Assembly (NCBI GenBank): GCA_030616775.1 | Contig: JAUWWQ010000021.1 | Span: 1-64,000, forward strand | DNA: 64,000 bases | Direction: 5' to 3' | Origin: Planctomycetota bacterium | Lineage (GTDB): Bacteria > Planctomycetota > Phycisphaerae > UBA1845 | In this document: positions 30,530 through 53,748 of the stretch, in pieces | Numbering within the stretch: position 1 is the stretch's first letter | How the letters are laid out: each line of letters starts with the position of its first letter | Program-made: the position numbers and the translations under genes | Notes under the pieces: generated by a model | Databases searched by the model: none | Told to the model about the DNA's origin: nothing | What the model saw: only the letters and a program-made list of their open reading frames with translations

Positions 30530-31375
30530 CTACTCCTGCGCGAAGGAGCCCAGGAGGCTCGAGAAATCCGCAAGGTCCACGTCCTGATCGGCATCGCGGT
30601 CGAAGTACCACAGGCAGTCTCTTGCGTCGAGGCCCACCCTGGTGGGCTCCGGCGAGATGTGGGGGCCGGCCAGGCAATCTGTGAAAATAGCGAAGTCGTC
30701 CAGGTCCACATCGCCGTCGTCGTCAGCGTCGCCGGGCACGGCGCTGCGAATGATCAGAAGCGGCTTTGTCACCGGATCGGCGTCGAGTGCGTCGATGAAC
30801 ACCTGGTTGGTCACGTGCGGGGTGTTGGGATCGATCTGGAATCGGAATGCTACCGCTTTGTCACCAGCCAGCAAGGCCGACGCCACCAGTTCGGTAACGT
30901 CAAGCGTCTCAGCACGCGGTGCCTGGTTGGCCATTACTGTGATCACTCCCTGCAAAGTAGCGGGTCCTGCGGAGAAATCGTTCGGCGATTCGTACAAGTC
31001 CGCCGGGTAGGAGTACACGTGGAGGGTCACGTCCGGAAATGGGAAGACGCTGGCGCCGCGGGTTGTGAAGCTGAGTGTGACGGTAAAAGGCGTTGTGAGG
31101 TTCGCTCCGCGCAGGTCGTACTCGCATACGATGCGGTGGTCCACTGCGCTTTGCGGCGTCTCCGTTGTGAGCGTCACGGCGCCGGCGAATCCCGCCGGGC
31201 CGAAGACCCAGTTCCAACCGTCCACCACCCCGTCGTAATCGCCCAAGCCACCACCGTCCGCCAGTGTGCCGCCGGCCGTGGGGTAGACGATATCGGCGGC
31301 ACGAGTCGGCAAGGAGATCAATGCCAAGGCAGCCAACGCCAGATACGCCGGGATTCTGGTAAGACGGAGCATCAT
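30530..31375 (-). CDS. Secreted protein with C-terminal dockerin-type EF-hands
   Basis: A 281-residue exported protein. The signal peptide is LALAALALISLPTRA with cleavage before ADIVYP. A beta-sandwich-like central part follows. The C-terminus has two Ca-binding loops of the dockerin type: GDADDDGDVDLDDFAIFTDC near residue 215 and FDRDADQDVDLADFSSLLGS near 257. Secreted Planctomycetota proteins often end this way; the repeat may mediate surface attachment. The ATG overlaps the stop of the upstream NHL-cytochrome gene by 4 bases, so the two are co-translated. Confidence 0.8.
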   Translation of the reverse strand: MMLRLTRIPAYLALAALALISLPTRAADIVYPTAGGTLADGGGLGDYDGVVDGWNWVFGPAGFAGAVTLTTETPQSAVDHRIVCEYDLRGANLTTPFTVTLSFTTRGASVFPFPDVTLHVYSYPADLYESPNDFSAGPATLQGVITVMANQAPRAETLDVTELVASALLAGDKAVAFRFQIDPNTPHVTNQVFIDALDADPVTKPLLIIRSAVPGDADDDGDVDLDDFAIFTDCLAGPHISPEPTRVGLDARDCLWYFDRDADQDVDLADFSSLLGSFAQE

Positions 31376-33543: not shown

Positions 33544-33848
33544 GACGCACTACTTAACAAGCAGATGTTCGGTCCCCCGTGAAGGTGCCCCGAGTACTCC
33601 TGCGACCTCCCCGGCTCAGTATAGCACGGAACCTGCGTATGGTCAGGACATCAGGTAGGAAGAGCAGCGATTCTTTTCGGTCCGCCGTCCACCCAGGGCC
33701 AAACGGGCCTCATTTATCGGTACCACCCCCTTGCACAGCCGCTGTGGGTCTACAGGTTTGGCCTCAATTCGCCGATCAGCGCTGGGAGCCACATTCGAGG
33801 CAGGCGCGAGCCTCACCCGCGGGACCTCCGCGCCGCTGGAATACCCCG

Positions 33849-34628
33849 ATGATGTCACCACTACCCGCGACTCCAACGCCCGGCCCGCGTCCCTCGAGCG
33901 CCGCATCAGTTGGCCTGACAGTCGCTCTGTCACTGACTGGCGTGGCGGCAGCCCTGGGCGGTTCATCGACGGTACCCAACACGCTGCAATTCGGTCCGGG
34001 AAGTACGAATCATCCGGTCGGCGTCATCCCTTCTACGGCCGTTACCGTGCCTTCCAGTTGGCCGGTGGACAACCGCGGGGCGATCACCTGCTTGACCTGC
34101 CACGCGGACATCCCAACCAGCCGGGAAGTATCAGGGCCGCAACTGCGTGATTTCGAGTCACACGCTCCACAAGCGGCCGATTTCTGTGCGAGATGTCACG
34201 GTGAGACAGACCAGGGCAGCGCCAGGTCGGTGCATTGGCGTACACTGGGGGTAGCGCATCTCCCCAGCGATCGGACCGATCCTCGCGATGGTGGCGGAGT
34301 ACTCGATACCCGCACGCGGCAATGCCTCTCCTGCCACGACGGTGTCAGCGCACCCGAATCCACCAACACGACACCGTGGGCCCGTTCCCTGGGTAACATG
34401 GGTGACAAGCGCCGCAACCACCCCATCGGCGTCCAATACCGTGACCTTGGCCGCCCGAAGGACCTTTCCCCGCTCCGCCCCGCTAGCCTGTTGCCACGGG
34501 AGGTCGCTCTGCCCAACGGGAAAGTGGGCTGTCTTTCGTGTCACAACCTCTTTGCCGGAGGGGAGTATCTGCTGACTGTTCCGACCAAGGGTTCCGAACT
34601 ATGCCTGACTTGTCACGACATGAGATAA
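33849..34628 (+). CDS. Five-heme cytochrome c
   Basis: About 259 residues with a signal or anchor helix (VGLTVALSLTGVAAALGGSS) and five CxxCH sites: CLTCH, CARCH, CLSCH, CLSCH and CLTCH. The C-terminal half, with QCLSCHDGVSA, NHPIGVQYRDLG, VGCLSCHNLFAGGEYLL and CLTCHDMR, resembles the tetraheme module seen at 40213, 40897 and 46813. The frame runs up to 33579, but the upstream portion is Pro/Arg-rich and unlike a cytochrome, so I start at ATG 33849 (or 33852). It is divergent from the NHL fusion. Confidence 0.82.
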   Translation: MMSPLPATPTPGPRPSSAASVGLTVALSLTGVAAALGGSSTVPNTLQFGPGSTNHPVGVIPSTAVTVPSSWPVDNRGAITCLTCHADIPTSREVSGPQLRDFESHAPQAADFCARCHGETDQGSARSVHWRTLGVAHLPSDRTDPRDGGGVLDTRTRQCLSCHDGVSAPESTNTTPWARSLGNMGDKRRNHPIGVQYRDLGRPKDLSPLRPASLLPREVALPNGKVGCLSCHNLFAGGEYLLTVPTKGSELCLTCHDMR

Positions 34629-40212: not shown

Positions 40213-40824
40213 ATGAGGCAGGCAATATTCATCCCGCTCTCGATCGCGCTGGGCGCTTGCGGTGCGGCCGCGTTTGCAGCCGGGATCATCGGGACCGGGC
40301 ATGACTTTTCGAGCGAAGCGTGGAGCGACGGGCGAATCTGTCTGCCGTGTCATGCATCGCACAACGCACAGACTGACGACGACGGCAGCAGCATGGTCCT
40401 CTGGAACCATGTGATGACCGACGAGACATTCACGATGTACTCCGATTTCGTGATCGAACGAACGGATCGCGACCAGGATGAGCAGCCGGGAGGGTCCAGC
40501 AAGCTGTGCCTGAGCTGCCACGATGGTGCAACCGCCGTCGATGCCTTCGGTGGCGGGCCGGAGTCCCCTTCGGTCTTCGCAGAGACCTCCCTGGGCACGG
40601 ATCTGCGGGATGACCACCCGATCGGAGTGCAATATCCGCCCGACGGCTTCGCCGGGTTCAAGCCGAGGGCCAATCTGCCCCCGGTGAAGCTGGAGGCCTG
40701 GGGTGGCAAGACCGACCGCGTTGAGTGCACGTCATGTCATGAACCGCACTCGGACGATTTCGGCATGTTCCTGCGCATGGACAATACCGGCAGCGCCCTG
40801 TGTCTGCAGTGTCATGACAAGTAG
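40213..40824 (+). CDS. Tetraheme cytochrome c (copy 1)
   Basis: A 203-residue secreted cytochrome. The signal peptide (IPLSIALGACGAAAFAAG) is followed by four CxxCH sites: CLPCH, CLSCH, CTSCH and CLQCH. The conserved module runs GRICLPCHASH, SSKLCLSCHDGATA, LGTDLRDDHPIGVQYP, RVECTSCHEPHSDDFGMFL and SALCLQCHDK. The next gene is a close paralogue 72 bases away, showing local duplication. It was probably a soluble periplasmic carrier. The HP in DDHPIGVQ and the H of PCHASH are candidate distal ligands. Confidence 0.9.
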   Translation: MRQAIFIPLSIALGACGAAAFAAGIIGTGHDFSSEAWSDGRICLPCHASHNAQTDDDGSSMVLWNHVMTDETFTMYSDFVIERTDRDQDEQPGGSSKLCLSCHDGATAVDAFGGGPESPSVFAETSLGTDLRDDHPIGVQYPPDGFAGFKPRANLPPVKLEAWGGKTDRVECTSCHEPHSDDFGMFLRMDNTGSALCLQCHDK

Positions 40825-40896
40825 CCCCGCTTCACTTCGCGGGACGGCCCGACTGCAAAGGTATAGCTAGCGAATGGATGAATGGATGGGGGATCG

Positions 40897-41529
40897 ATGA
40901 AATCTACAATGGGGTGGCGAACAGCAGTATTCGTGGCCATACTGACTGGCGCGGCCATTTCACAGGACACGTCCAGGATCGCGAATACGCCGCATAATCT
41001 AAACACCGTGGACGTTTGGGGCGTGGTCGTTCCCCAGAACCGTGTGTGCCTGCCCTGTCACACGTCCCATGGTGCCAAGATGGACGATGACCGGGGGGCC
41101 TTGGTGTTGTGGAACCACGAGATCACGGAGCAGACGTTCGAGATGTATACCACCTCGGCGGGTCACCAGGGCGGTCAGCCGGAGGGCACCAGTAAACTCT
41201 GCCTGAGCTGCCATGATGGGGCCACCGCCATCGACAGCTTCGGCGGCAACAGCGATTTCTTCAACAATGTCAGGATCGCCCCGGATCGTCCCAGCAACCT
41301 CGGCACGGACCTGCGGGACGATCACCCCATCGGGATTCAATATCCTCCGCCGGACTTGACAGGTTACAACGACAAGAGCACATTCAGCGGGGTGAAGGTA
41401 GTGACGGTCAACGGCATTGACCGGGTGGAATGTACGTCTTGCCACGACCCCCATGACAACTCACTCGGAATGTTCCTTCGACAAACGCTGGACGGCAGTG
41501 CGATCTGTCTCGAGTGTCATGACAAATAG
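40897..41529 (+). CDS. Tetraheme cytochrome c (copy 2)
   Basis: A 210-residue secreted cytochrome. I chose ATG 40897 so the signal peptide WRTAVFVAILTGAAISQ starts near the N-terminus. Four CxxCH sites follow: CLPCH, CLSCH, CTSCH and CLECH. It matches copy 1 almost motif for motif (GTSKLCLSCHDGATAIDSFG, LGTDLRDDHPIGIQYPP, VECTSCHDPHDNSLGMFLR), with the largest differences in the middle loop (about 95-140). It lies 72 bases after copy 1 and 181 bases before the NHL lipoprotein. Confidence 0.9.
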   Translation: MKSTMGWRTAVFVAILTGAAISQDTSRIANTPHNLNTVDVWGVVVPQNRVCLPCHTSHGAKMDDDRGALVLWNHEITEQTFEMYTTSAGHQGGQPEGTSKLCLSCHDGATAIDSFGGNSDFFNNVRIAPDRPSNLGTDLRDDHPIGIQYPPPDLTGYNDKSTFSGVKVVTVNGIDRVECTSCHDPHDNSLGMFLRQTLDGSAICLECHDK

Positions 41530-41710
41530 TCGCCCCGGGAGAAGATGCGAAAGGCGGAAACGCCGATAACTTCCCATGGACGGACCTGATCGGTGAAGGC
41601 GCAATCGGGGCCTCGCTCGATGTCCCGTCGCGGAGCCGATGCCCCAATCCGGGAGGTGTTGCCTTGTGAAAGGAAGCCAGCGACATCCGTGTATTCTGCG
41701 ATGTTGGCCG

Positions 41711-42931
41711 ATGGTAGGGCGGCGGACACAAGCAAGCGCGACCGGCGTCGTGTTCGTTGCTCTGACCCTGGCCGCGGGGTGCAACGCCCCGCACAAGACA
41801 CAAGCCCCTTTGCTGCTGTTCCCCTCGCCGCCGGACAAGCCCAGGATCCAGTTCCTGACCTGGGCGAGTGGCGCCGAGGAGGTTGAGGTCCCAAAGAGCA
41901 GTTTCGCACAGTTCGTACTCGGCGACGAACCCGAGAACAGTTTGGGTATTCAGAAGCCCTACGGCGTGGCCGCGAGGGACGGCGTTGTGTACGTGTGCGA
42001 CACGAAGATGCCGGGACTGTGTCGGCTGGACTTCAAGAACCGAACCTTCTCGGTGCTTGGCGTCCGCGGACCGGGGCGGTTGCGCAAACCGATAAACGTC
42101 CTCCTTGATGCCGCGGCGTACAAGTTCGTTGCGGACTCGGAACGTGAGCAAATCGTCGTCTTCGGCCCTGATGACCAGTATGTAACGGCGTTTGACGTCC
42201 CCAAGCCAAGCCATCCGGTCGACGTAGCCCTGTGGGAAAATGAGCTGTATGTGCTGGACAACGATGATTCCTGCCAGATCGTGGTTATGGATCGGCAGAC
42301 CGGCGAAGTGCTCCGTACTCTGGGCGGTCCGGGCGAGGAACCGGGGCAGTTCAGAAGACCCAACAGCCTGTGCATCGGTCCCGAAGGGCACCTGTACGTC
42401 AGCGACACCTTGAATTGGCGCATCCAGAAACTGACCCGTGACGGAGAGGTCGTCTGGACCACTGGGACGCCGGGCCAGCGCCTGGGACAGTTTATACGCA
42501 ACCGTGGTCTACGCATCGGACCTGACGGGATCATTTATGTTGCCGACGCCGCTACCGAGATCATCCAGATGTACAACGTGGAAGGCCAGATACTCATGCA
42601 CTTCGGCGGTCCGGGTTCGGTGCCCGGTGCCCTGGTGCTTCCCGCGACCGTGGCCATCGATGCGAGTTCCATCCCTTATTTCAAGCAGTTCATCCACGAA
42701 GATTTCAACGCCGAGTACCTCCTGTTCGTCAGCAGTCAATACGGCGAACACCTGATCAGCGTTTACGCCTTCGGTTCCTTCCCCGAAGGCTATCAGCTTT
42801 CGGACGCTCAGATAGCCTCACTCCCACCGGTGGGCGAAGACGAGAGCGAAAAGTCGGCAGCCTCATCGCCAGACGCCGAAGGTAGTCCGAATCAGGCGGG
42901 CGAGGCTCAGCAACCCAAGGAGCAGGAATAA
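41711..42931 (+). CDS. NHL-repeat lipoprotein 1
   Basis: A 406-residue beta-propeller lipoprotein. The signal ends in lipobox TLAAGC (TGVVFVALTLAAGCNAP). About six NHL blades follow, such as EPGQFRRPNSLCIGPEGHLY and IRNRGLRIGPDGIIYVADAA. The C-terminus is an acidic Ser/Glu/Pro/Gln tail after residue 375. I took ATG 41711 since the longer frame (41639) is Cys/Arg-rich. It starts the coupled electron-transfer operon. It is a paralogue of the 45713 gene (shared RIQFL/RIRYV start and phased blades). The propeller may hold cytochromes together or bind a substrate. Confidence 0.85.
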   Translation: MVGRRTQASATGVVFVALTLAAGCNAPHKTQAPLLLFPSPPDKPRIQFLTWASGAEEVEVPKSSFAQFVLGDEPENSLGIQKPYGVAARDGVVYVCDTKMPGLCRLDFKNRTFSVLGVRGPGRLRKPINVLLDAAAYKFVADSEREQIVVFGPDDQYVTAFDVPKPSHPVDVALWENELYVLDNDDSCQIVVMDRQTGEVLRTLGGPGEEPGQFRRPNSLCIGPEGHLYVSDTLNWRIQKLTRDGEVVWTTGTPGQRLGQFIRNRGLRIGPDGIIYVADAATEIIQMYNVEGQILMHFGGPGSVPGALVLPATVAIDASSIPYFKQFIHEDFNAEYLLFVSSQYGEHLISVYAFGSFPEGYQLSDAQIASLPPVGEDESEKSAASSPDAEGSPNQAGEAQQPKEQE

Positions 42932-42934
42932 GCC

Positions 42935-43615
42935 ATGGATGCCTGCCGGCCCCATCAGTGCCCTGCGCACCAGTTGCCCAAGCGACCAGGAGATTCCCGG
43001 ACGTATTCACATCGAGCCGGTTGGTGCGCGGCGGCCGTTTTGCCGCTGATGGTAGCAGCTCTGATCGTGGCGGCGGCGTGCTCACCCGAGGCCAAGCATC
43101 GGGCGCTGACATTCTTCTTCGATGGCGTTCCCCCACTTGAGGGCGACGTTGCCCATATCGAGGTCCAGGTTCCGGGAGACTTACTGGCCGGTGCGGCACT
43201 CAAACCGCCGCGGCGCGTGGAGGCCATGAAGAAGTTCTACAACCATCCACCCTATAAGGACAATCGTTGTGCCGGCTGCCACGACGTTGACGCCGGTGGG
43301 CTGCTGAAGACGGCCCGGGAGGGACTGTGCCAGAGCTGCCATCCCGAGAAGCCCGCGAAGAAGAAATATGTCCACGGGCCCGTGGCGGTTAACGGCTGCC
43401 TGGCGTGTCATCGTTATCACAGGGCATTGCATCCGAAAGTGCTGATAGACGACGCCCAGACCCTCTGCTTCCATTGCCACGAGACCGGTGAGCTGAGGAC
43501 CGATGAGCATCACGCGACGATCGAAGAGGAGCCTTGCATCGACTGCCACGACGCGCACGGCGGCGACGATCGGTTTTTCCTCATTCCGAAAGAGGAAACG
43601 GTTGATGCTTCATGA
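42935..43615 (+). CDS. Pentaheme c-type lipoprotein
   Basis: A 226-residue protein whose N-terminal signal (AAVLPLMVAALIVAAACS) has a lipobox-like IVAAAC. Five CxxCH sites lie between residues 110 and 210: CAGCH, CQSCH, CLACH, CFHCH and CIDCH, with bridging His in HGPVAVN and HATIEE. The first M follows the NHL gene stop by 3 bases, so the two are co-translated. Predicted attachment to a membrane on the periplasmic face makes it a candidate link between propeller and porin. The first 20 residues are polar and could be over-long. Confidence 0.85.
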   Translation: MDACRPHQCPAHQLPKRPGDSRTYSHRAGWCAAAVLPLMVAALIVAAACSPEAKHRALTFFFDGVPPLEGDVAHIEVQVPGDLLAGAALKPPRRVEAMKKFYNHPPYKDNRCAGCHDVDAGGLLKTAREGLCQSCHPEKPAKKKYVHGPVAVNGCLACHRYHRALHPKVLIDDAQTLCFHCHETGELRTDEHHATIEEEPCIDCHDAHGGDDRFFLIPKEETVDAS

Positions 43616-43628
43616 AACGTATTGATCG

Positions 43629-45716
43629 TTGAACGGAAGCAACGAACAGGTTCGTCGCGCGATATGCTGGACCGCTATAGGGGCAGCGGGGCGCGCAGGT
43701 TGTTGGATTGTGTGCCTGGCCCTCGGTGCCGCCGGTGCTGCATGTCCGGCCGGTTGCCGCACACAGCCTGGGAGGTCCACCGGCATCGGGGCGCTAAGAT
43801 TCACCGACTTTGGGGCCCACGCGGACTTCGTTGTCAGGTGGCGGGAAAGGGAGCAAACGTCGAAGACCACAACCAGTGAGACCCGGTCCGAAGAGACAAT
43901 CTACGAGGAGAGTGTCAGCCTGGAGACGAAAGGCTATGTGTACCATCCTAACCTGCTCGAATTCGCCCTCGGGGGAGTGTTCGGGCTGGTGCAGGAGGAT
44001 TTTACGGACATCATCGATGGGCGCAGGCGACACGACACCAATACGGGCGATCTTCTCGAGTTCGACGTGGACGCGCGGATGTTCAAGAGGAAGTCTTACC
44101 CCATGACGGTGTTTGCCCACCGCCGCCGCGGGCTTGTCCCCCGGCCCTTTCTACCCAGCCTGGAGACCACCACCACAAACCTCGGGTTCACCTGGCAATA
44201 CGTCAGCAAGAAGACTCCCAGCAGTTTTCAATTCAGCCACACTGATGCCAAGCTGACTCCGCTTTTCGTGACCGGGCGCACCGATGAGGAAGGCCGGCAG
44301 AAAAACACCGAACTGAGATTCGAGACCGCCTATCACTTCAGCGACCACCACGTGCTGTCGTTAACTTACGAGCATGAAACGGTCGAAGAAGAACCCTTCG
44401 AGCTCGACTATGACGCCGATGAGATCACCCTCACCCATCGCCTGGAGTTTGGCAGCCGGCACCAACACGATCTGCGCTCGGAGCTACATTACCTGAATCA
44501 GCGCGGTACGATCGACATTGAGCGTGCCCGCTGGCGCCAAGACCTGCGGTTGAAACACTCGGATACGTTGCAGTCTCTATTCCAATTGGAGTTGCTGGAC
44601 CGGACCCGCGGAAACCGATTCAGCAATGTGCCGGACGTGGAGGAGCGTTCACTCCTGCTTTCCGGGTCGCTCCGGCACCAGCTTTACCAGAGCCTGACTT
44701 CGCAGCTCCGAATGTACGTACGGGAACAGGAATTCGAACCCGACCTAAAGATCACCAGATGGGGTGGTGAGGCCAACTTCAACTACCGCAAGATTAACCG
44801 TTGGGGCGTGCTGTATGCCAACTACGGCTTCCGAGCCGAGCGGAACGATCACCGCGGAGAGTCGCGCACGACCGAGGTTGTCGACGAATCGCGGACTTTT
44901 CAAGACCCCGATCCGATCAGACTCAACAACCGGAATGCCCATGTCGGCTCCATTTTCATCACCGCGGAAGATCGCGTCACCATATACCAGCGCGGCCGGG
45001 ACTTTGTGGTGCGGACCTTCGGCAACGTCGTCGAGATTGAGCGCGTGCCGACCGGACACATCGCGGACGGCGAGACGGTTCTAATTGACTACCTGTTCAA
45101 CCTGGGCGGCAGCTTCGAACTGGACACCATCGCCCACAACTTCGGCATTCGACAGGACTTCGACTTCGGTCTGACACCGTACTACCGATTCGAGTGGCAG
45201 GATCAGTCCATCACTCCGACCAGAGCTACCGGGGCAATTGCCGAGGATATCACGGCTCACGTTGTCGGCGTGGAGTACCGGGATGCCCCGCTGAGACTCT
45301 TTGCGGAATACGAGGACCATGATTCAACCATAAATCCATTCGTCAGCTCGCGTCTGGGGGCGTCCTATACGCACCGATTCAAGTCCGGTGCGGAGACGAG
45401 CCTTCACACCCGCTGGACTGATACCAGCCATGTCGCGCCCGTTGAACGGGATATCAGGCTGCTGACGCTGGAAGGCCGGTACCGACACCGCATCGGGCAA
45501 AACCTGACAGTTGAAAGTTCTGTGCTCTACCGCAACGGAGAGGACTCGGTCTCCCGTGACACCGAAGGGATTGACGCATCGCTAGCGGTGGAATGGTCCG
45601 TGCGGCAGACGGATGTCAGAATGAGCTTGGAGTACAGCGATTTTGAGGACGAATTCACGGAGAATGACTCTTGCACCCTGTTCGTCCACGTGAGGCGAAG
45701 GATCTGGCAACCATGA
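43629..45716 (+). CDS. Predicted outer-membrane beta-barrel protein
   Basis: A 695-residue protein with a signal-like N-terminus (CWIVCLALGAAGAACPAGC), then long amphipathic alternating strands with aromatic girdles (LLEFALGGVFGLVQ, ELRFETAYHFSDHHVLSLTY, SLLLSGSLRHQLYQSLTSQL), up to the terminal strand ending RRRIWQP. No Cys-heme motif occurs after residue 50. That is the profile of a large outer-membrane barrel, as in porin-cytochrome conduits. The start is TTG at 43629 and is uncertain; an ATG lies just upstream out of frame. It overlaps the next gene by 4 bases. Confidence 0.8.
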   Translation: MNGSNEQVRRAICWTAIGAAGRAGCWIVCLALGAAGAACPAGCRTQPGRSTGIGALRFTDFGAHADFVVRWREREQTSKTTTSETRSEETIYEESVSLETKGYVYHPNLLEFALGGVFGLVQEDFTDIIDGRRRHDTNTGDLLEFDVDARMFKRKSYPMTVFAHRRRGLVPRPFLPSLETTTTNLGFTWQYVSKKTPSSFQFSHTDAKLTPLFVTGRTDEEGRQKNTELRFETAYHFSDHHVLSLTYEHETVEEEPFELDYDADEITLTHRLEFGSRHQHDLRSELHYLNQRGTIDIERARWRQDLRLKHSDTLQSLFQLELLDRTRGNRFSNVPDVEERSLLLSGSLRHQLYQSLTSQLRMYVREQEFEPDLKITRWGGEANFNYRKINRWGVLYANYGFRAERNDHRGESRTTEVVDESRTFQDPDPIRLNNRNAHVGSIFITAEDRVTIYQRGRDFVVRTFGNVVEIERVPTGHIADGETVLIDYLFNLGGSFELDTIAHNFGIRQDFDFGLTPYYRFEWQDQSITPTRATGAIAEDITAHVVGVEYRDAPLRLFAEYEDHDSTINPFVSSRLGASYTHRFKSGAETSLHTRWTDTSHVAPVERDIRLLTLEGRYRHRIGQNLTVESSVLYRNGEDSVSRDTEGIDASLAVEWSVRQTDVRMSLEYSDFEDEFTENDSCTLFVHVRRRIWQP

Positions 45717-46816
45717 CAACGGAACTGATCGAAAGGGGCGTAAATCCGGTGGCATGGCGTCCCGTCGGGGTGTTCTATATCATCGCGATGGCGGTGCCGC
45801 TCCTTGTCGCGTCGGGCTGTCAGCGTCCTTTAAGGCCGATCTTCGACGAGCCTTTATCGCCAATCACCTGGCCTGCCGACCCCGCTCGGGCAAGGATCAG
45901 GTATGTGGGGCAACTGACCTCGTCGGCCGACCTCAAGCCGCAGCGAAAGCTCTTCCAGGGAGTCGTGGACTTCCTCGTAGGGATAAAGGCCCCGGAGCAG
46001 CTTTACGGACCACGTTCCGTGGTCATCACCAAGGACGGAACCAGAGTGTGGATCGCGGATCCCGGTGGGCGCTGCCTGCACCTGTTTGATTTGCAGGATC
46101 GGTCCTACAAGAAGGTCATACGTGCGGGCAACGAGCATTTGTTCAGTCCGTCGGGCTTGTGCGTTGGACCTGACGAAACGATCTTCGTCAGCGATGCCGA
46201 GAGCGTCGCTATTTATCAATTGTCTGGACGTACCGGGGCGCTTCGCCGTTCGCTGCGCCTTACTGATGACGTTAAGCGGCCCGTGGCCCTGCACTATGAC
46301 GGTGATAAAGAGGAGCTCTTCGTCGTCGACGTCGCCGCTCACAACGTCAAGGTTCTAGGTCTTGACGGGCGGCCCATTCGCATTATTGGCAGACGGGGAA
46401 AGGGCCCGGGTCAGTTCAACTTTCCGTGTGACATCGCCGACGACGGCACGGTCATCTGGATTGCCGACACCGGCAACCAGCGGGTCCAGGGACTGACCCA
46501 TACCGGCGATCCGGTCGCCATCTTCGGGGAGGCGGGTGACGCCCCGGGCCAGTTGGCCCTGCCCAAGGGAATCGCCACCGACAGCGATGGAAACATATAC
46601 GTCGTGGATGCCCGCTTTGAGAACGTGCAGATATTCGACCGTACCGGTAGCCTGCTGCTCGTGATCGGCGAGGAGGGGACCGGGCCGGGGCAGTTCTGGC
46701 TGCCTGCCGGGATATTCGTCGATCCAGACGACAGAATCTGGATCTGCGATACGTATAATCGGCGCGTCCAGGTCTTCGAGCGCCTAATAGAGACTCGCGT
46801 CGGAGTTCAGCCATGA
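45713..46816 (+). CDS. NHL-repeat lipoprotein 2
   Basis: A 367-residue NHL-propeller lipoprotein. The signal FYIIAMAVPLLVASGCQRPL has lipobox VASGC. Blades include LYGPRSVVITKDGTRVWIAD, PGQFNFPCDIADDGTVIWIA and LALPKGIATDSDGNIYVVDA. ATG 45713 overlaps the barrel stop and its own stop overlaps the next ATG, both by 4 bases. Compared with NHL lipoprotein 1 it lacks the acidic tail. It probably lies on a membrane surface next to the barrel and the twelve-heme cytochrome. Confidence 0.86.
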   Translation: MTTELIERGVNPVAWRPVGVFYIIAMAVPLLVASGCQRPLRPIFDEPLSPITWPADPARARIRYVGQLTSSADLKPQRKLFQGVVDFLVGIKAPEQLYGPRSVVITKDGTRVWIADPGGRCLHLFDLQDRSYKKVIRAGNEHLFSPSGLCVGPDETIFVSDAESVAIYQLSGRTGALRRSLRLTDDVKRPVALHYDGDKEELFVVDVAAHNVKVLGLDGRPIRIIGRRGKGPGQFNFPCDIADDGTVIWIADTGNQRVQGLTHTGDPVAIFGEAGDAPGQLALPKGIATDSDGNIYVVDARFENVQIFDRTGSLLLVIGEEGTGPGQFWLPAGIFVDPDDRIWICDTYNRRVQVFERLIETRVGVQP

Positions 46817-48528
46817 ATCCCGCGTCAAACCGCAGTTTGTTGGGTGTGTTCGTAGTGGCGATCGTGTGCTGTCCCCGGATGGTTGGGGCCCAAGAACGTG
46901 TCGTCGAAACGGTGCATAACCTCTCGGTCAGCGGTCCGGGGGAGATTCGCGCTGAGTCGGAAGAGCAAGTCTGCATCTTCTGCCACGCGCCCCACAGCAC
47001 CGCCGGGTCGATACCGTTGTGGAATCGTGAGTTTCCGGTCGCGAACTACAGGATATACCAGTCATCGACGTTCGATGCCGCCCCGGGCCAACCCACCGGG
47101 GCCAGCAAGCTGTGCCTGAGCTGTCATGATGGGACCATCGCACTTGGTCGTGTTCTCAGCCGGGCCGACCGCATTCGCATGGTCGGTGGAGACTTCATAC
47201 CGGCGGGTCTATCAAACCTTGGGACCGATCTATCTGACGATCACCCGGTCAGTTTTCATTACACGGCCGGACTGGCGGCATCGGACCGCCAGCTCAAAAA
47301 CCCCAGCACACTGCCGGCCGAGATCACGCTCGATCCATCTGGGCAGCTCCAGTGCACGGCGTGCCACGACCCGCACCGCAACAGACACCGAATGTTCCTG
47401 ACGTTAAGCGACGAGTTCGGCGTCCTCTGCGCGGTATGTCATGACATGCGCGGTTGGTCATCCGGTTCACACGGCGTCTCCGGGCAGGCGGTGTCTGGCG
47501 CGGCCATGGGCGATTGGCCGTTCGGTACCGTGGCCCAGAACGCCTGCCGCAGTTGCCACCGCAGCCATGCCGCAGGCGGCCGTGAGCGGCTGCTTATCTT
47601 TGAGAGAGAGGAAGATAACTGTCTGAGCTGTCACGACGGACGAGTCGCACGGTCTGACATCAGCGCTGAAATTGACAAGCAGAGCTCTCACGACCCGCGC
47701 TTGTATATTGGCATTCACGACCCTGCGGAGACGGCGGCTGGTTCGCAACCGCATGTCGAGTGCAGCGACTGTCACAATCCACATGCGGCTGCCGCACCGA
47801 GCGATCAGGGTTACATCCCCATCGGGGCGACCATGCGCGGGGTATCGGGGGTGACATCGGGCGGCGGCTATGTGCAGGAGGCCCAGTTTGAATATCAGGT
47901 CTGCTATCGCTGCCACGGCGACGCGCCGGTTCCGACTACACGCCGCATTGTCCGCCAGGCCGATCAGCCCAACCTGCGTCTGAAGTTCAGCTCGACCAAT
48001 CCCAGCTTCCACCCGTTGGTAACGGCCTCGCCGGGCACGGATACGGTCAGCCTGGATCCGACCATCCCCCGTGGGACGCTGATCCGCTGCACCGACTGCC
48101 ACAGTAATGACACCGGGCCCCGAGCAGGCGGCAGCGGGCCTGACGGGCCACACGGCTCCGTGTACGACTTTCTTCTGGAACGCAACTACACCGTGTACGA
48201 CAATACGCCCGAATCGGACTACGACTACGCACTCTGCTACAAATGCCACAGACGCGCCAGCATCTTGAATAATGAGAGCTTCCCACGGCACGCCGAACAC
48301 CTGCGAGACCGGGACGCACCATGCAGCGCCTGCCACGACCCCCACGGAGTCAGTACGACCGTAGGCGGCGCCTCGGACCACATTCACCTTATCAACTTCG
48401 ACATCACCATTGTCCGCCCGTTGACCGGGACCGGGCAGATGGCATTTCGAGACCTCGGACGATTGGCCGGTAGCTGCACCTTGACATGCCACGGCCATGA
48501 CCACGACAACCAAGAATACGGCAACTGA
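46813..48528 (+). CDS. Twelve-heme-motif cytochrome c
   Basis: A 571-residue secreted cytochrome (signal LLGVFVVAIVCCPRMVGAQ). Eleven CxxCH sites occur: CIFCH, CLSCH, CTACH, CAVCH, CRSCH, CLSCH, CSDCH, CYRCH, CTDCH, CYKCH and CSACH. A last CxxxCH (CTLTCH) lies near residue 560. The N-terminal 200 residues match the tetraheme module of 40213 and 40897 (GASKLCLSCHDGTIALGRVL, LGTDLSDDHPVSFHY). The C-terminal 370 residues are unrelated. It could be the extracellular or periplasmic end of the conduit. It closes the operon. Confidence 0.9.
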   Translation: MNPASNRSLLGVFVVAIVCCPRMVGAQERVVETVHNLSVSGPGEIRAESEEQVCIFCHAPHSTAGSIPLWNREFPVANYRIYQSSTFDAAPGQPTGASKLCLSCHDGTIALGRVLSRADRIRMVGGDFIPAGLSNLGTDLSDDHPVSFHYTAGLAASDRQLKNPSTLPAEITLDPSGQLQCTACHDPHRNRHRMFLTLSDEFGVLCAVCHDMRGWSSGSHGVSGQAVSGAAMGDWPFGTVAQNACRSCHRSHAAGGRERLLIFEREEDNCLSCHDGRVARSDISAEIDKQSSHDPRLYIGIHDPAETAAGSQPHVECSDCHNPHAAAAPSDQGYIPIGATMRGVSGVTSGGGYVQEAQFEYQVCYRCHGDAPVPTTRRIVRQADQPNLRLKFSSTNPSFHPLVTASPGTDTVSLDPTIPRGTLIRCTDCHSNDTGPRAGGSGPDGPHGSVYDFLLERNYTVYDNTPESDYDYALCYKCHRRASILNNESFPRHAEHLRDRDAPCSACHDPHGVSTTVGGASDHIHLINFDITIVRPLTGTGQMAFRDLGRLAGSCTLTCHGHDHDNQEYGN

Positions 48529-48600: not shown

Positions 48601-49716
48601 TCACAACATCTGTCTGTCCGGCGAGCCGGCGGTGTGTCCGGGATGTTCACAGAAGGCCTTCTTGTACAGCACGAGCATGGCAGCTAGGACGAAGAGCAGG
48701 CCCGCGGTACCGACGGCGATTCTGGTTTGCCGCTGACGGGCGTCGTGCAACGCCTGAACGAGTTCGTGGTCATAGGCCGTGTGCTTGGCGACGTGCTCGA
48801 TGGATTTGGCCAGCTCGTTGATCTCCCGGATGTTGCACCCGTGTTGCACTTCGCGGAGGCGGAGCCAGGTGTCGTCCAGGTGCTCGTACATTTCGGTCAG
48901 GGCCAGGTTGCGATAGCCCATCCGCTGGAGGTCCTGAAACTGCACGGAGCATTGCTCGATCAGCCCGGCGGCCTGCTCGAAGGTCTCCCGGATCTTGGCG
49001 ACCACAGTCATGTTGCCCGTCGTGTGGCAGGGTGAACATTTGCCGAGTTCCTCCCGGGAGCGGGCATCCAGGATGTCCGTGGTGGCAAGGGGGATGGCAT
49101 GACTGCCTTCCCCATGGCAGAACAGACAGGAAGGGACGCCGACTCTCCCGTGGGCACTGGCCAGGTGTTTCTCCGCACTTTTGGCATGGCATATCGCGCA
49201 CACATACGCGATACCTCGTCCTCGGGTCATGTTGACACCGCCGTCCCGGCTGAACAGGCAGCCGGGGGCCTCCGGGCCCACGTGCGGGTCGCCGAGATGC
49301 TTCTCAATATCGCTGCTGTGGCATTCCCTACACGCGAAGGAGATATCTGCTTCGACGGCCATGCCGATTCCAACACGGTCCCGCAAGAACAGAAACTCCG
49401 GGTTGAACGCCAGATGAGAGACCTCCTTGAACTCGTCATCCGACGAGAACTCCTCGCGTTTCACCTTCGCGTCACCACCATGGCAGCTCTCGCAGGGAGT
49501 GTTCTCCTCATAGTGCACGCTCTTGGCCCACTCCTGGTCGACGATCTCCGCCAATCGCCCGCCGCTTTTGCGGTGGCACTCCATGCAGGCATTGCCGGCG
49601 TACCATACCTCGGGAGTTGCATCTTCGGCCGGTGGCACACCCACCGTGTCAGGGGCGCTCGACAAGAGCAGTAAGACAAAAATGGCCGGAAGCAGCATCA
49701 TCTCGACCAGTCCCAT
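48601..49716 (-). CDS. Six-heme membrane-anchored cytochrome c
   Basis: About 371 residues with an N-terminal hydrophobic segment (LLPAIFVLLLLSS), six CxxCH sites (CMECH, CESCH, CRECH, CAICH, CLFCH, CSPCH), a helical stretch (EQAAGLIEQCSVQFQDLQRM) and a C-terminal helix (GTAGLLFVLAAMLVLYKKA). A GCLFSR in the middle may be a lost heme motif. ATG 49701 overlaps the upstream stop as ATGA; ATG 49716 is an alternative. Last gene of the Rieske/b operon, it could replace cytochrome c1/f as the acceptor. The family is unnamed to me. Confidence 0.85.
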   Translation of the reverse strand: MGLVEMMLLPAIFVLLLLSSAPDTVGVPPAEDATPEVWYAGNACMECHRKSGGRLAEIVDQEWAKSVHYEENTPCESCHGGDAKVKREEFSSDDEFKEVSHLAFNPEFLFLRDRVGIGMAVEADISFACRECHSSDIEKHLGDPHVGPEAPGCLFSRDGGVNMTRGRGIAYVCAICHAKSAEKHLASAHGRVGVPSCLFCHGEGSHAIPLATTDILDARSREELGKCSPCHTTGNMTVVAKIRETFEQAAGLIEQCSVQFQDLQRMGYRNLALTEMYEHLDDTWLRLREVQHGCNIREINELAKSIEHVAKHTAYDHELVQALHDARQRQTRIAVGTAGLLFVLAAMLVLYKKAFCEHPGHTAGSPDRQML

Positions 49717-50267
49717 GGCCCGTGCAAAACGCGTTGAATTTTGCGACGCTCGCGGGCCAACAGCACGTAGAACAAAGCCACGACCAGGCACGACATGAAG
49801 ATCATCGGAATCGACGGCGGCCAGGCAGCCCAAAGCGTAAACGCCACGAACAGCACAATGACCAGCGTGACCAAAAATCGATGAAGCGCACCCGGCGGTC
49901 TATGCGACCAACGACGCGCCCACAGCGGAACCAGGACCACGGCAAGTGCAATCAACCCCTGCGAAAGCACACCGATCGTCTTGCCGGACATGCCCAGCAA
50001 CTCCTGCGGGGGCAGCTTGAGATACTGATAGGCCGCAAGGAAATACCACTCGGGCCGGAGGTGGGCGGGCGTGGCTCGTGGGTTGGCCGGCTCCGACTCC
50101 TCGATCCAATGCCCCAGGTCCCAATGATCCAGAATAACGGGAAGAACGGCCAGGACCGTGATGACAGCCAGCGTGCACAGCGTGACAACGGCCATGCGCA
50201 TGATCTCGTTCGGCCAGAAGGGTTCGAGTTGCTCCGGCGTGTATTGTTTGCGATAGTCAACCGCCAC
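49698..50267 (-). CDS. petD: Cytochrome b subunit IV (PetD-like, C-terminal half)
   Basis: A 189-residue membrane protein homologous to the C-terminal half of cytochrome b, encoded apart from the N-terminal half as in b6f-type complexes. PEWYFLAAYQYLKL carries the PEWY motif of the quinol-oxidation (Qo) site. Four helices are predicted (VVTLCTLAVITVLAVLPVIL, GLIALAVVLVPLWARR, FLVTLVIVLFVAFTLWAA, IFMSCLVVALFYVLL), one more than plain subunit IV. It lies 22 bases after petB. Confidence 0.93.
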   Translation of the reverse strand: MAVDYRKQYTPEQLEPFWPNEIMRMAVVTLCTLAVITVLAVLPVILDHWDLGHWIEESEPANPRATPAHLRPEWYFLAAYQYLKLPPQELLGMSGKTIGVLSQGLIALAVVLVPLWARRWSHRPPGALHRFLVTLVIVLFVAFTLWAAWPPSIPMIFMSCLVVALFYVLLARERRKIQRVLHGPWDWSR

Positions 50268-50289
50268 GCTCGTTCACTCCCAATACCGC

Positions 50290-50949
50290 TTACAGCGGTT
50301 TCGAAATCCCGGTCCGACGGATCATGGTAAAATGGATCCCCATAAATATTACGGCAGCACCCGGCAGCACCCAAATGTGCATGGCGAAGAAGAAGCCCAA
50401 GGTCTCCCCGGAGATGTTTGGTCCGCGCCGGGCCCAGATCGAAATCTGCTCACCAATAACCGGGATGGCGGTGGGAATTTCAGTCGCCACGCTCGCCCCC
50501 CAATAGCTGAGATTGGTCCAGGGAAGCAGATATCCGGTAAACGCCATCCCCGCAGTCAAGGAGAGAAGAATTATGCCCGACAACCAGTGCAACTCGCGCG
50601 GGGACCGGTAAATCTTGTAGTAGGCAATGCGGGCCATGTGCATCAAGACCAACACGATCATCACGTCGGCGCCGACGGCATGAACACGCTGAATCAGCCA
50701 ACCCATCGGAACGTTGCTCTTGATGAAGGTCACCGAGTCCCAGGCCCGGGCGGGATCCGGTTTGTAGTAGATCAGCAGGAGAATGCCCGTGTACACCTGG
50801 ATCACGAACAGCAGGAACGCCAGTCCTCCGAAACAGCCCGCCCAACCGAGCGTGCGCGGGACCCACTTCCTGGTGATGTTCTTCTCCACGAAGGGCGTGA
50901 GTTGATAGCGGTCGTCGAGTCCCTTATAGATGGCCCGTAATAACGCCAT
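50290..50949 (-). CDS. petB: Cytochrome b N-terminal half (b6-like)
   Basis: A 219-residue cytochrome b6-like subunit binding two b hemes. The two His pairs are VHAVGADVMIVLVLMHMAR and FAMHIWVLPGAAVIFMGIHF. Cys39 lies in GWAGCFGGLAFL, the site where b6f-type and Gram-positive b6 subunits bind heme ci (cn) covalently. GYLLPW is conserved. The length is normal. The gene order Rieske, b, subunit IV makes a quinol-oxidising complex. It is 16 bases downstream of the Rieske gene. Confidence 0.94.
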   Translation of the reverse strand: MALLRAIYKGLDDRYQLTPFVEKNITRKWVPRTLGWAGCFGGLAFLLFVIQVYTGILLLIYYKPDPARAWDSVTFIKSNVPMGWLIQRVHAVGADVMIVLVLMHMARIAYYKIYRSPRELHWLSGIILLSLTAGMAFTGYLLPWTNLSYWGASVATEIPTAIPVIGEQISIWARRGPNISGETLGFFFAMHIWVLPGAAVIFMGIHFTMIRRTGISKPL

Positions 50950-50965
50950 TCCTATACCTTTGGCC

Positions 50966-51445
50966 TCACGCCCTCCCGCCCTGGTCGCGAATCTTGAGCA
51001 CGTCCTCTTCCACGACGAACTCGACGCGCCTAAGGGGCATGTTCACCGGCCCGGCAATCGGGTTGCCCAGATCGTCGAACGCAGCGTTATGGCAGGGGCA
51101 TTTGAAACCCTGACTGGCGCTTTCCCACTGGACTATGCAGCCAAGATGTGGACATGTCCCATCAAAGGCCCGGATGTCGTCCTTCAACTTCACGACCACG
51201 ATCTGACTGCCCCGGTGCTCGCCCCAATAGGCGTAGCCTTCCACCAACTCTTCCAACGGGACCTCCATCAACTCCATAGGACCCAACGATTTCGGCAGCC
51301 GGAGAAACGCAACGATCGGGTAGCCGACGGCTGCGGCAGACACAGCGGCCGTTCCGCCGATGGCAACCTGGCAAAACCGCCGGCGATTACCGTCCGCCGG
51401 AGAGCCGATCTGATCGGCGTCGTTTTTGTCGTTTGTATCGTTCAT
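50966..51445 (-). CDS. qcrA: Rieske iron-sulfur protein
   Basis: About 159 residues from ATG 51445, the start I favour because a ggtagg-like site precedes it; the frame is open to 51505. The N-terminus NRRRFCQVAIGGTAAVSAAA is a twin-arginine signal or anchor. The 2Fe-2S ligands are in CPHLGCIVQW and CPCHNAAFDDLG, the Pro loop is GPVNMPLRR. It accepts electrons from quinol at the Qo site of the b complex. The first gene after the 13-15-heme cytochrome, which ends 87 bases upstream. Confidence 0.95.
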   Translation of the reverse strand: MNDTNDKNDADQIGSPADGNRRRFCQVAIGGTAAVSAAAVGYPIVAFLRLPKSLGPMELMEVPLEELVEGYAYWGEHRGSQIVVVKLKDDIRAFDGTCPHLGCIVQWESASQGFKCPCHNAAFDDLGNPIAGPVNMPLRRVEFVVEEDVLKIRDQGGRA

Positions 51446-51532
51446 GTTCGACCTACCACTCGCCTCGGCGTCTCCCATCATCCTCAACGGTAGGCAAGTG
51501 TACACATCCTAAAGTTCCGACAGCCGCTGATA

Positions 51533-53038
51533 TCACTCTTCAAGCTTCTCCGGTTTCAAGCCCGCCCGTGGCGCCTTGGGCATTTCACCTTTACCTCGAT
51601 CGTAGGAACGCGACTCATGGCAGCCCGGGGCACACCTTCCACCATCAGGTAGTCTCGTGTGGTTAATCTCGATCTGCCACCCGCGCGGGCCGAACGGCAC
51701 CGTCTCGCGCATATGGAAGGGCCTGGACGATGCGTGCATCTCGTGACAGGCCCGGCAGGTACGGCCCCTAAACTCCTTGTTGACGTGAACGAAATGCAAG
51801 TTGCGCTCCTGATCACGAAACTCGGTAACGCCTATGCCCTGCTCTGCGACCACGAGCTGTTCAATGTGACACTCGAAACACAGAGCATATGACTTGACGT
51901 CAAACGGAGCGTAGAACGACTCGGGATAATCGCCGGCCAACCGGGCGTAACGCGTCGAGGCGTGTGACTCGTGGCACGGCGTGCACTGTCCCTCACGGAT
52001 CGGACCATGATGCCGGGGGTTCTCCTTGAGCAGATAGGCCATGTCGGTGAGCACCCGACCGTCGTCCGTGCGTAACAGCTCGTTGTGACACGAAAGACAA
52101 AGGGTCTTCTCCAGCTTGGAGAGCAGGCTGGGCAGCACGCTGCCGTGCCCGGCATGACAGGCGTTGCAGGATTCCTCGGTGGTCAAGGCGCCGTGAACGA
52201 ACGGGGAGGTCTCGACGAGCTTTCGAATATCATCGTGCTCGTGGCACAAATAGCACAGCTTCTGTGGGCCCTCCCGTAGTTGCCCCGGGTGCTCCCTAGT
52301 ATGGGCGTCATGGCAGTCCAAACAACGTCCATCCATGACCGGGGCGTGCGAACGGCCAATCAGTTCGAGGCGAGAACGGAGGTCCTCGTGGCAATACAGA
52401 CAGAGTTGCTGCACCTCCTTGGGCAGGAGCATCGGCATCCACGACGAGTGGGATTCGTGACAGACGCTGCAATCGCCGACGACCTCCATACGCCCATCAA
52501 CGTACCGTATGCCCCCGTACTCCTCCGGCTTGTGACAGGGGAAGCAGAGTGTGCCCGACGGGTCACCGAGCAATTGCAATCGATAATCGCTCCCGTGCGG
52601 GTCGTGGCACTTGTCGCACTCCTTATCGGTAACGGGCTTATGGACGACGGTGCGCTCGGACTGCGTGTGGCAGTAGCTGCACAGCTCGGTTTTGGGGACA
52701 ATCAGCCCGTAGGTGTGCTTTTGCAGATCGGTTACGACATGGCACGCCTCACACTGCTTCTGGGCCGTCGGACCGTGGAGGACCCGGCCGGCCATCTCCT
52801 TGGTGTGACACTCGGTGGTCACGCACGATTCAACCGGGCCGGTGGGCCGCTCGACCGAGGTGAGAGGCTGCATGAGTGGGCTGAAAGGTTCGTCGACCGG
52901 AACGACAGGCTGCTCAAGGGGGCCGACGGGCTGTTCGACGGGGCCTGTCAGCGGCTCCACGGGCGTCTGCACCGCGGCAGACAGACCCGCCAACAGCCAC
53001 AGGAAAACCACACAAGAAACATGGCGACGGTTCATCAA
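51533..53038 (-). CDS. Multiheme cytochrome c (13 CxxCH plus 2 atypical sites)
   Basis: A 501-residue secreted cytochrome. After the signal (VVFLWLLAGLSAAVQT) comes a Pro-rich low-complexity linker of about 45 residues with periods like PVEPLTGPVEQP. Thirteen CxxCH sites follow, many in doublets (QCEACH, LCSYCH, ECDKCH, LCFPCH, DCSVCH, LCLYCH, RCLDCH, LCYLCH, SCNACH, LCLSCH, QCTPCH, LCFECH, TCRACH). An upstream CVTTECH (Cx4CH) and a late CAPGCH (Cx3CH) may bind atypical hemes. It heads the Rieske/b operon and may be its high-capacity electron acceptor. Confidence 0.92.
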   Translation of the reverse strand: MMNRRHVSCVVFLWLLAGLSAAVQTPVEPLTGPVEQPVGPLEQPVVPVDEPFSPLMQPLTSVERPTGPVESCVTTECHTKEMAGRVLHGPTAQKQCEACHVVTDLQKHTYGLIVPKTELCSYCHTQSERTVVHKPVTDKECDKCHDPHGSDYRLQLLGDPSGTLCFPCHKPEEYGGIRYVDGRMEVVGDCSVCHESHSSWMPMLLPKEVQQLCLYCHEDLRSRLELIGRSHAPVMDGRCLDCHDAHTREHPGQLREGPQKLCYLCHEHDDIRKLVETSPFVHGALTTEESCNACHAGHGSVLPSLLSKLEKTLCLSCHNELLRTDDGRVLTDMAYLLKENPRHHGPIREGQCTPCHESHASTRYARLAGDYPESFYAPFDVKSYALCFECHIEQLVVAEQGIGVTEFRDQERNLHFVHVNKEFRGRTCRACHEMHASSRPFHMRETVPFGPRGWQIEINHTRLPDGGRCAPGCHESRSYDRGKGEMPKAPRAGLKPEKLEE

Positions 53039-53467
53039 TGAAAGCCGAGGTTACCGGATCCAACACCTAGGGGCGATACAGCCAGAACTCCGATCTCCAA
53101 GGTTCCTTAAACGCGGCTCACCGTGGCAACTCCCGATCCACGCGGCACATGACCACTGAAGGGTGCCCCGGCCACTCGCTCCGATGAGTCTAATCGGCCA
53201 TCTGCGGTCCGGATCGCTCCAGAAGCCCCTTGATTCTAACGTGCTTCAAGCTGCAGGGCGAACAGTTGCTGCCTCAGATGGCAGCCATTATCGGCCGCTG
53301 GCGTCGCAGCCCAGCGCCAACCATGGGACATACAGCACTTGTCAATACACGTACCAGATTAGGAGTTCCCCGATGACCGCCGGTTTAGTGCTCCGACAGC
53401 TCTCAATTAATGGGGTGGCATGTCCGTCGAAGACGGACGCCGGCATGTTGTACGCTGCTTACGAGTA

Positions 53468-53573
53468 CTTCGCTGGACCGAGAATCCCTTCACTTCGCTG
53501 GACCGAGAATCCCCTCACTTCGCTGGACCGAGAATCCCTTCACTTCGCTGGACCGAGAATCCCTTCTCGGTCC
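53468..53573. repeat. Tandem expansion of the dispersed repeat (25-bp unit x4)
   Basis: Four head-to-tail 25-bp units (cttcgctggaccgagaatcc core) end in one full hairpin with ctcggtcc. Only the last unit has its pairing partner. This seems to be local slippage of one hairpin arm. Confidence 0.8.
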
Positions 53574-53590
53574 ACTTGACAATGGAGGTA

Positions 53591-53675
53591 TGGTGCGAGA
53601 AAGGATTCTCGCACCAGCGATGATTCTCGCACCAGCGATGATTCTCGCACCAGCGAAAGGATTCTTGCACCAGAG
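53591..53675. repeat. Tandem expansion of the partner arm (18-bp unit)
   Basis: After one hairpin (ggtgcgag...ctcgcacc) about three units of gattctcgcaccagcgat repeat, the last degenerate. The other hairpin arm of the same element has thus also expanded. Confidence 0.7.
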
Positions 53676-53748
53676 ATCAAGAAGCATGCCTAGCTCATGG
53701 CGGCGCCGCGCTTGGTCATGCCACCCGTCGGAGGAAAGCTTAAGCGAG

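Follow-up and report, generated by a model that had tools for sequence, protein, structure and literature searches.

A conserved planctomycete Rieske/cytochrome b operon with multiheme cytochromes and no cytochrome c1 or f

In Geobacter (PMC2825233, PMC5877670) and Kuenenia (PMC12954380), multiheme cytochromes are known or proposed to take the place of cytochrome c1 or f in Rieske/cytochrome b complexes, and in Methanoperedens pentaheme cytochromes are added to the Rieske/b complex (PMC4683180). Here we describe a five-gene operon of this kind from a 64,000-nucleotide stretch of DNA (positions 1 to 64,000 of contig JAUWWQ010000021.1; hereafter the window) belonging to a 4.45 Mb draft genome that is 97.8% complete. 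The closest named relatives of the window are Phycisphaerae metagenome-assembled genomes (MAGs) of the Planctomycetota. As Rieske/b complexes with multihemes are already known from the Geobacter Ext cluster and from Kuenenia, the planctomycete complex is a variant and not the first case; the arrangement reported in the original prediction, which had been made from the letters of this DNA, stands, but its novelty is lower than was implied there. It is a separate, conserved planctomycete version, and is new as a variant.

Gene content and cofactor sites

The operon is complete and occupies 53035-48601 of the minus strand, with intergenic gaps of 27, 16, 22 and -4 bp. All five open reading frames of the original prediction were recovered on that strand with the families it had named. 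The start of the six-heme gene was moved from 49833 to 49701, where it forms an ATGA overlap with the subunit IV stop, a geometry that is identical in relatives, and for the multiheme gene the start is the ATG at 53035. From 5′ to 3′ the features are as follows.

51533..53035, minus strand: multiheme cytochrome c of 500 aa with 13 CXXCH, one CX4CH and one CX3CH; signal peptide, no further transmembrane (TM) helix; DmsE/MtrA-like in part
50966..51505, minus strand: Rieske [2Fe-2S] protein, motifs CPHLGC and CPCHNAAF (Ser to Ala, Tyr to Phe); the true start may be downstream
50290..50949, minus strand: b6-type cytochrome b (PetB), four TM helices, heme-b histidines H90, H104, H191 and H206
50833..50835, minus strand: codon of PetB Cys39, which corresponds to Cys35 of cytochrome b6, the heme-ci (cn) cysteine
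49698..50267, minus strand: subunit IV-like protein with a PEWY motif; four predicted TM helices against three in b6f subunit IV
48601..49701, minus strand: six-heme cytochrome c (HexC) with a signal peptide and, at the C terminus, a helical bundle that leads into a single TM helix

Profile searches matched these products to Paired_CXXCH cytochrome, Rieske (PF00355, 43 bits), Cytochrome_B (PF00033, 170 bits) and Cytochrom_B_C/subunit IV (PF00032, 44 bits; TIGR01156). As in Rieske/bc complexes generally, a Rieske protein accompanies a cytochrome b that carries the four heme-b histidines, and a PEWY-type Qo motif is present. The 13 and 6 CXXCH motifs of the large and small cytochromes compare with 0.15 and 0.04 in shuffled proteins.

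PetB was aligned end to end with the cytochrome b6 of the b6f structures 2zt9, 6rqf, 1vf5, 1q90 and 7r0w. Cys39 fell on Cys35 in all five, and the proposal that it marks the heme-ci site thus survived the test that had been set for its refutation. Across 92 aligned cytochromes b, the four heme-b histidines were present in every sequence (92/92). A cysteine occupies the ci position in each window-type, b6f and anammox NAD-type protein, and it is invariant throughout the window PetB clade. Most fused cytochromes b, including the copy that this genome carries on contig C10, have Val, Ser, Thr, Ala or another residue there. The subunit IV position equivalent to the Phe40/Glu ligand of heme ci holds Ala or another non-aromatic residue.

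The absence of a cytochrome c1 or f partner, as originally predicted, extended to the whole genome: PF02167 (cytochrome c1) had no match anywhere, and PF01333 (cytochrome f) gave nothing above cut-off in the genome and none in the operon. COX1 is also absent from the genome, which has no heme-copper oxidase. Two cytochrome b genes of this superfamily were found, the operon PetB and the fused copy on C10. The latter follows genes for a nine-heme TM cytochrome and a Rieske protein, and its operon likewise lacks c1 and f. Operons of the C10 type were located at G000:C10, L008:6393-9494, L216 and L217.

The Rieske cluster motif reads CPCH-x-Ala-x-Phe, with the Ser lost in 16/16 and the Tyr in 14/16 homologues. 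Since the potential-raising Ser is gone in all 16, a low potential is predicted. In the yeast protein, loss of the Ser or the Tyr lowers the potential by ~130 or ~65 mV respectively, as quoted in PMC12954380. Our motif comparison shows that the anammox Rieske proteins retain the Ser; two of them have potentials of +303 and +335 mV (PMC12954380), and as the one of the two without the Tyr is not lower in potential, prediction from the motif alone is approximate.

The large cytochrome had been given 13-15 hemes. All 15 sites, from the CX4CH at the start to the CX3CH at the end, are conserved in every homologue (16/16); 15 is therefore the better count, and the protein probably carries 15 hemes. 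Its closest solved relative is 6r2q_A, a chain of the Mtr complex entry whose molecule label is odd (E 1.3e-8). The C-terminal TM helix of HexC sits in a long helix predicted with confidence (AlphaFold2, 16 rows), and a Foldseek search with the predicted fold returned no significant match. HexC is homologous to the nine-heme cytochrome of the second Rieske/b operon (97%). Homology to the anammox hexaheme of Kuenenia was considered and is not supported (18%). Short direct repeats lie 5′ of the operon at 53460-53680 of the window, with units such as ctcggtccagcgaagtgaagggatt and ctggtgcgagaatc.

Conservation, phylogeny and NAD(P) fusions

The gene set is shared with 15 named loci at PetB identities of 66-82%, in which the large cytochrome invariably has 13 CXXCH and the small one 5 or 6, and three further members of the phylum also carry it (G431, G362, G365). 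A 5/6-heme TM-anchored cytochrome is encoded in the operon of every homologue. The original prediction had called for a PetB phylogeny against b6f and anammox complexes. In a tree of 73 rows, built by a quick method with SH-aLRT support only and without Geobacter and Bacillus sequences, the 19 window-type PetB formed a separate planctomycete clade (SH-aLRT 94). Its sister (90) is a group of planctomycete operons that combine PetB and subunit IV with several multihemes and have no Rieske gene nearby (L169, L170, L172, L173 and L188; one is in the anammox-type genome G317). The b6f and anammox NAD-type PetB (Kustd1480-85 and Kuste4569-74 types) fell outside the window clade; the anammox comparators were identified by gene content matching published operons (PMC12954380), and operons with such Kuenenia-matching content are present in G317.

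Two further gene groups were seen around the complex in relatives. A thioredoxin-like (redoxin) plus TPR protein, possibly a cytochrome assembly factor, is encoded between the large cytochrome and Rieske genes of the five-heme subgroup (L048:6435-7511, L050:1389-2624, L167:9773-10795) and is absent from the window. Moreover, a CbcL-like protein that joins a 10-11-heme part to a b-type membrane domain, together with an 11-heme cytochrome, adjoins the complex at L048:720-4490, L052:10569-14324, L055, L057, L166 and L167.

Of the described systems, the Geobacter extHIJKLMNOPQS cluster (GSU2940-GSU2930; ExtM, ExtN, ExtO, ExtP, ExtQ, ExtS) has the same order of multiheme(s), Rieske protein, b6-like protein, membrane protein at the place of subunit IV and small multiheme, with a porin in the cluster (PMC2825233, PMC5877670). 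Among NCBIfam models ExtP fits PetB best, but at 214 bits the match remains below the equivalog cut-off of 290. Where Geobacter has 12- and 10-heme proteins the window has a single 15-heme cytochrome, and the place of the 4-heme lipoprotein is taken by a six-heme protein with a C-terminal TM helix (ExtS model, 17 bits against 100). No ExtH, ExtI, ExtJ or ExtKL was found beside the window operon. The Kuenenia complexes Kustd1480-1485 and Kuste4569-4574 share the b6-type cytochrome b with heme cn, the subunit IV-like protein and a multiheme in place of cytochrome f (PMC12954380). They differ in the PetB branch, in a subunit IV of five TM helices, in the Rieske Ser (Ala here), in a hexaheme without clear homology to HexC and in an NAD(P) oxidoreductase subunit, which the window operon lacks. 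Cytochrome b6f likewise has a split cytochrome b, the ci cysteine and PEWY in subunit IV; the window complex departs from it in the missing cytochrome f, the additional subunit IV helix, the separate PetB clade and a Rieske motif without Ser and Tyr, and from cytochrome bc1 in its split cytochrome b genes and lack of c1. The Geobacter proteins ImcH, CbcL and CbcBA, which oxidise menaquinol in the service of extracellular electron transfer, are not known to have a Rieske Q-cycle core. Their likeness to the present complex is that menaquinol electrons are handed to multihemes (PMC12307469).

An NAD(P) module does occur in four relatives (OFTM321, OFTM243, OFTM285 and OFTM5), in which the six-heme cytochrome continues beyond its TM helix into ~520 residues holding Fer4_20, Pyr_redox_2 and a further [4Fe-4S] domain (GltD/PRK12771-like, 484 bits). 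By its topology the module would be cytoplasmic. The fusions, of which two are cut by contig ends, are located at:

L061:9231-11831, six-heme/NAD(P)/FAD/[4Fe-4S] fusion
L062:9157-11772, the same
L059:8823-11297, the same
L060:4653-6860, the same

The fused modules group with a copy on contig C45 (53% identity) and not with the anammox modules (28-32%), a split supported at 94/93. Because they stand apart from the anammox modules, Rieske/b complexes and NAD(P) oxidoreductases seem to have become coupled on at least two occasions within Planctomycetota. The presence of 'R/b complex genes' in some OFTM MAGs is already on record (PMC10732223); we found no description of the hexaheme-TM-NAD(P) fusion architecture in the literature searched. 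That the window complex descends from an ancestor with the NAD fusion is the less parsimonious account, with the outgroups (L048, L050-L058) lacking the module and the fusions forming one branch; L049, the copy from the same genus, is truncated within HexC and therefore cannot decide the matter. Nor does the genome appear to keep an NAD module elsewhere for this complex, as the closest copy (53%) is fused to an apparent 2-oxoacid oxidoreductase gamma subunit gene and likely has another job.

The adjacent conduit cluster

A plus-strand cluster for a predicted outer-membrane electron conduit and nanowire-like cytochromes is convergent with the operon, its last gene ending 72 bp from HexC. The likeness of the barrel to MtrB and of the tetrahemes to OmcE belongs to this cluster and not to the Rieske/b operon. 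Its genes are:

40213..40824, plus strand: tetraheme cytochrome, OmcE-like over its full length (7tfs_A, E 3.8e-20)
40882..41529, plus strand: tetraheme cytochrome, OmcE-like over its full length (7tfs_A, E 8.3e-21)
41639..42931, plus strand: NHL beta-propeller
42935..43615, plus strand: five-heme cytochrome c
43629..45716, plus strand: predicted outer-membrane beta-barrel of MtrB-like fold (model pLDDT 84)
45671..46816, plus strand: NHL beta-propeller
46813..48528, plus strand: 11-heme cytochrome (12 with a CX3CH), the N-terminal 211 aa OmcE-like (7tfs match)

The entry 7TFS is OmcE (PMC12954529). The top match of the barrel was MtrB, 6r2q_B, with a Foldseek E of 1.3e-8 and a VIA-align Z of 17.0 over 443 residues, on a scale where other large barrels reach 16. 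The conduit adjoins this operon in the window, G041, OFTM5 (L062) and G422. A paralogous MtrB-like/NHL/11-heme conduit is linked to the C10-type operon in several relatives, and such a conduit lies within 12 kb of it in 7/25 genomes where 0.25 were expected, although the genomes are related and the adjacency probability is therefore overstated.

In the same-genus genome G002, 7.65 kb of the conduit are collinear with the window at 87%, and homology ends inside the 11-heme gene (window:47567; L211:8645), which reflects either a rearrangement or an assembly fault; no cytochrome b of the window type was found in G002. Elsewhere in the window, an NHL-propeller protein with nine CXXCH (31372-33543, minus strand) is divergent from a five-heme cytochrome (33579-34628, plus strand), and homologues of this pair also stand beside the conduit in relatives (L212-L214).

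Electron route, alternatives and meaning

We put at roughly 60% the probability that the operon encodes a menaquinol-oxidising Q-cycle complex that feeds extracellular electron transfer via multihemes. The sequence itself shows which genes are present and that they are co-linear and conserved, as well as the heme sites, the cysteine for heme ci, the Rieske motif and the absence of c1/f and heme-copper oxidase; assembly as a single complex, the type of quinone, the Rieske potential and the route and direction of the electrons are what we infer. The split b6 and subunit IV complex with covalent heme ci would oxidise menaquinol by a Q-cycle, returning the first electron by way of hemes bp, bn and ci to menaquinone at the cytoplasmic face. 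The second would pass to the low-potential Rieske cluster, which may dock on membrane-anchored HexC in place of c1/f, a step for which the heme domain is poorly modelled. The periplasmic 15-heme cytochrome would then relay electrons towards the outer membrane, where the most likely receiver would be the MtrB-like barrel of the adjacent cluster and the multiheme and OmcE-like cytochromes that accompany it. Anaerobic extracellular respiration could thereby gain proton-motive force at the quinol step. Passage of quinol electrons to multiheme wires, as the original prediction had considered plausible, is supported by the five-gene set in 15 other named loci, the TM-anchored HexC, the low-potential Rieske motif, the lack of a heme-copper oxidase and the adjacent conduit.

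Several points weigh against this interpretation. All sequences come from draft genomes or MAGs. The heme domain of HexC was modelled with a mean pLDDT of 61, only its C-terminal helices being confident (AlphaFold2, 16 rows), and the Z of 17 between the barrel and MtrB is barely above that of unrelated large barrels (16). A homologous barrel occurs in 52/60 relatives, which makes the conduit far commoner than the complex and the barrel independent of it. Moreover, the conduit is on a separate contig in several complex-bearing genomes, and in one survey adjacency was seen in only 2/7 relatives. Being commoner and often on another contig, the conduit cannot be an obligate partner of the complex, and the relatedness of the genomes noted above further tempers the count of linked loci.

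These unlinked cases sit well with delivery to a soluble or periplasmic acceptor system (nitrate, nitrite, sulfur or selenium oxyanions) via the 15-heme cytochrome, with proximity of the conduit incidental. Geobacter Ext, which has the same order round its Rieske/b core, is indeed tied to selenite and tellurite reduction through ExtI (PMC5877670). The argument against it is that conduit and complex are linked in several lineages, another class among them, and that the paralogous pair is linked repeatedly; we regard this route as improbable. Slightly less doubtful, yet still unlikely, is operation in reverse, in which outside electrons, e.g. from Fe(II) or Mn(II), would enter via the conduit and multihemes and a reverse Q-cycle driven by proton-motive force would reduce quinone and finally NAD(P)+. 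The fusions of the six-heme cytochrome to a cytoplasmic NAD(P)/FAD/[4Fe-4S] module (L059-L062) point that way, as does the source of the OFTM MAGs, a tunnel whose biofilms oxidise iron and manganese (PMC10732223). However, the window copy has no NAD(P) module, which by the PetB tree is most simply explained as a later acquisition by the OFTM branch, and a low-potential Rieske fits outward flow. Our survey of the other small c-type cytochromes of the genome was not exhaustive, and a mono- or diheme protein encoded elsewhere could be the true Rieske partner, with both multihemes acting only downstream. This we consider very improbable, given that no c1/f family match exceeded the cut-off and that a 5/6-heme TM-anchored cytochrome stands in the operon of every homologue.

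Outward flow from menaquinol thus remains our preferred reading. More tentatively, this planctomycete lineage may use a proton-pumping Q-cycle complex as its inner-membrane entry to extracellular electron transfer, while sister genomes possibly bifurcate quinol electrons between outward multihemes and NAD(P)+ through the hexaheme-TM-NAD(P) reductase fusion, which would have arisen independently of the anammox one. That separate fusion offers an independent natural experiment on the unproven proposal that bifurcation at anammox Rieske/b complexes yields NAD(P)H. The steps that carry electrons outwards from menaquinol in Geobacter are described as contributing no additional proton-motive force (PMC12307469). 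If our reading is true, a conduit fed by a Q-cycle complex would allow energy to be conserved at the menaquinol step, and the window and its relatives provide a concrete, conserved gene set with which this can be tested.

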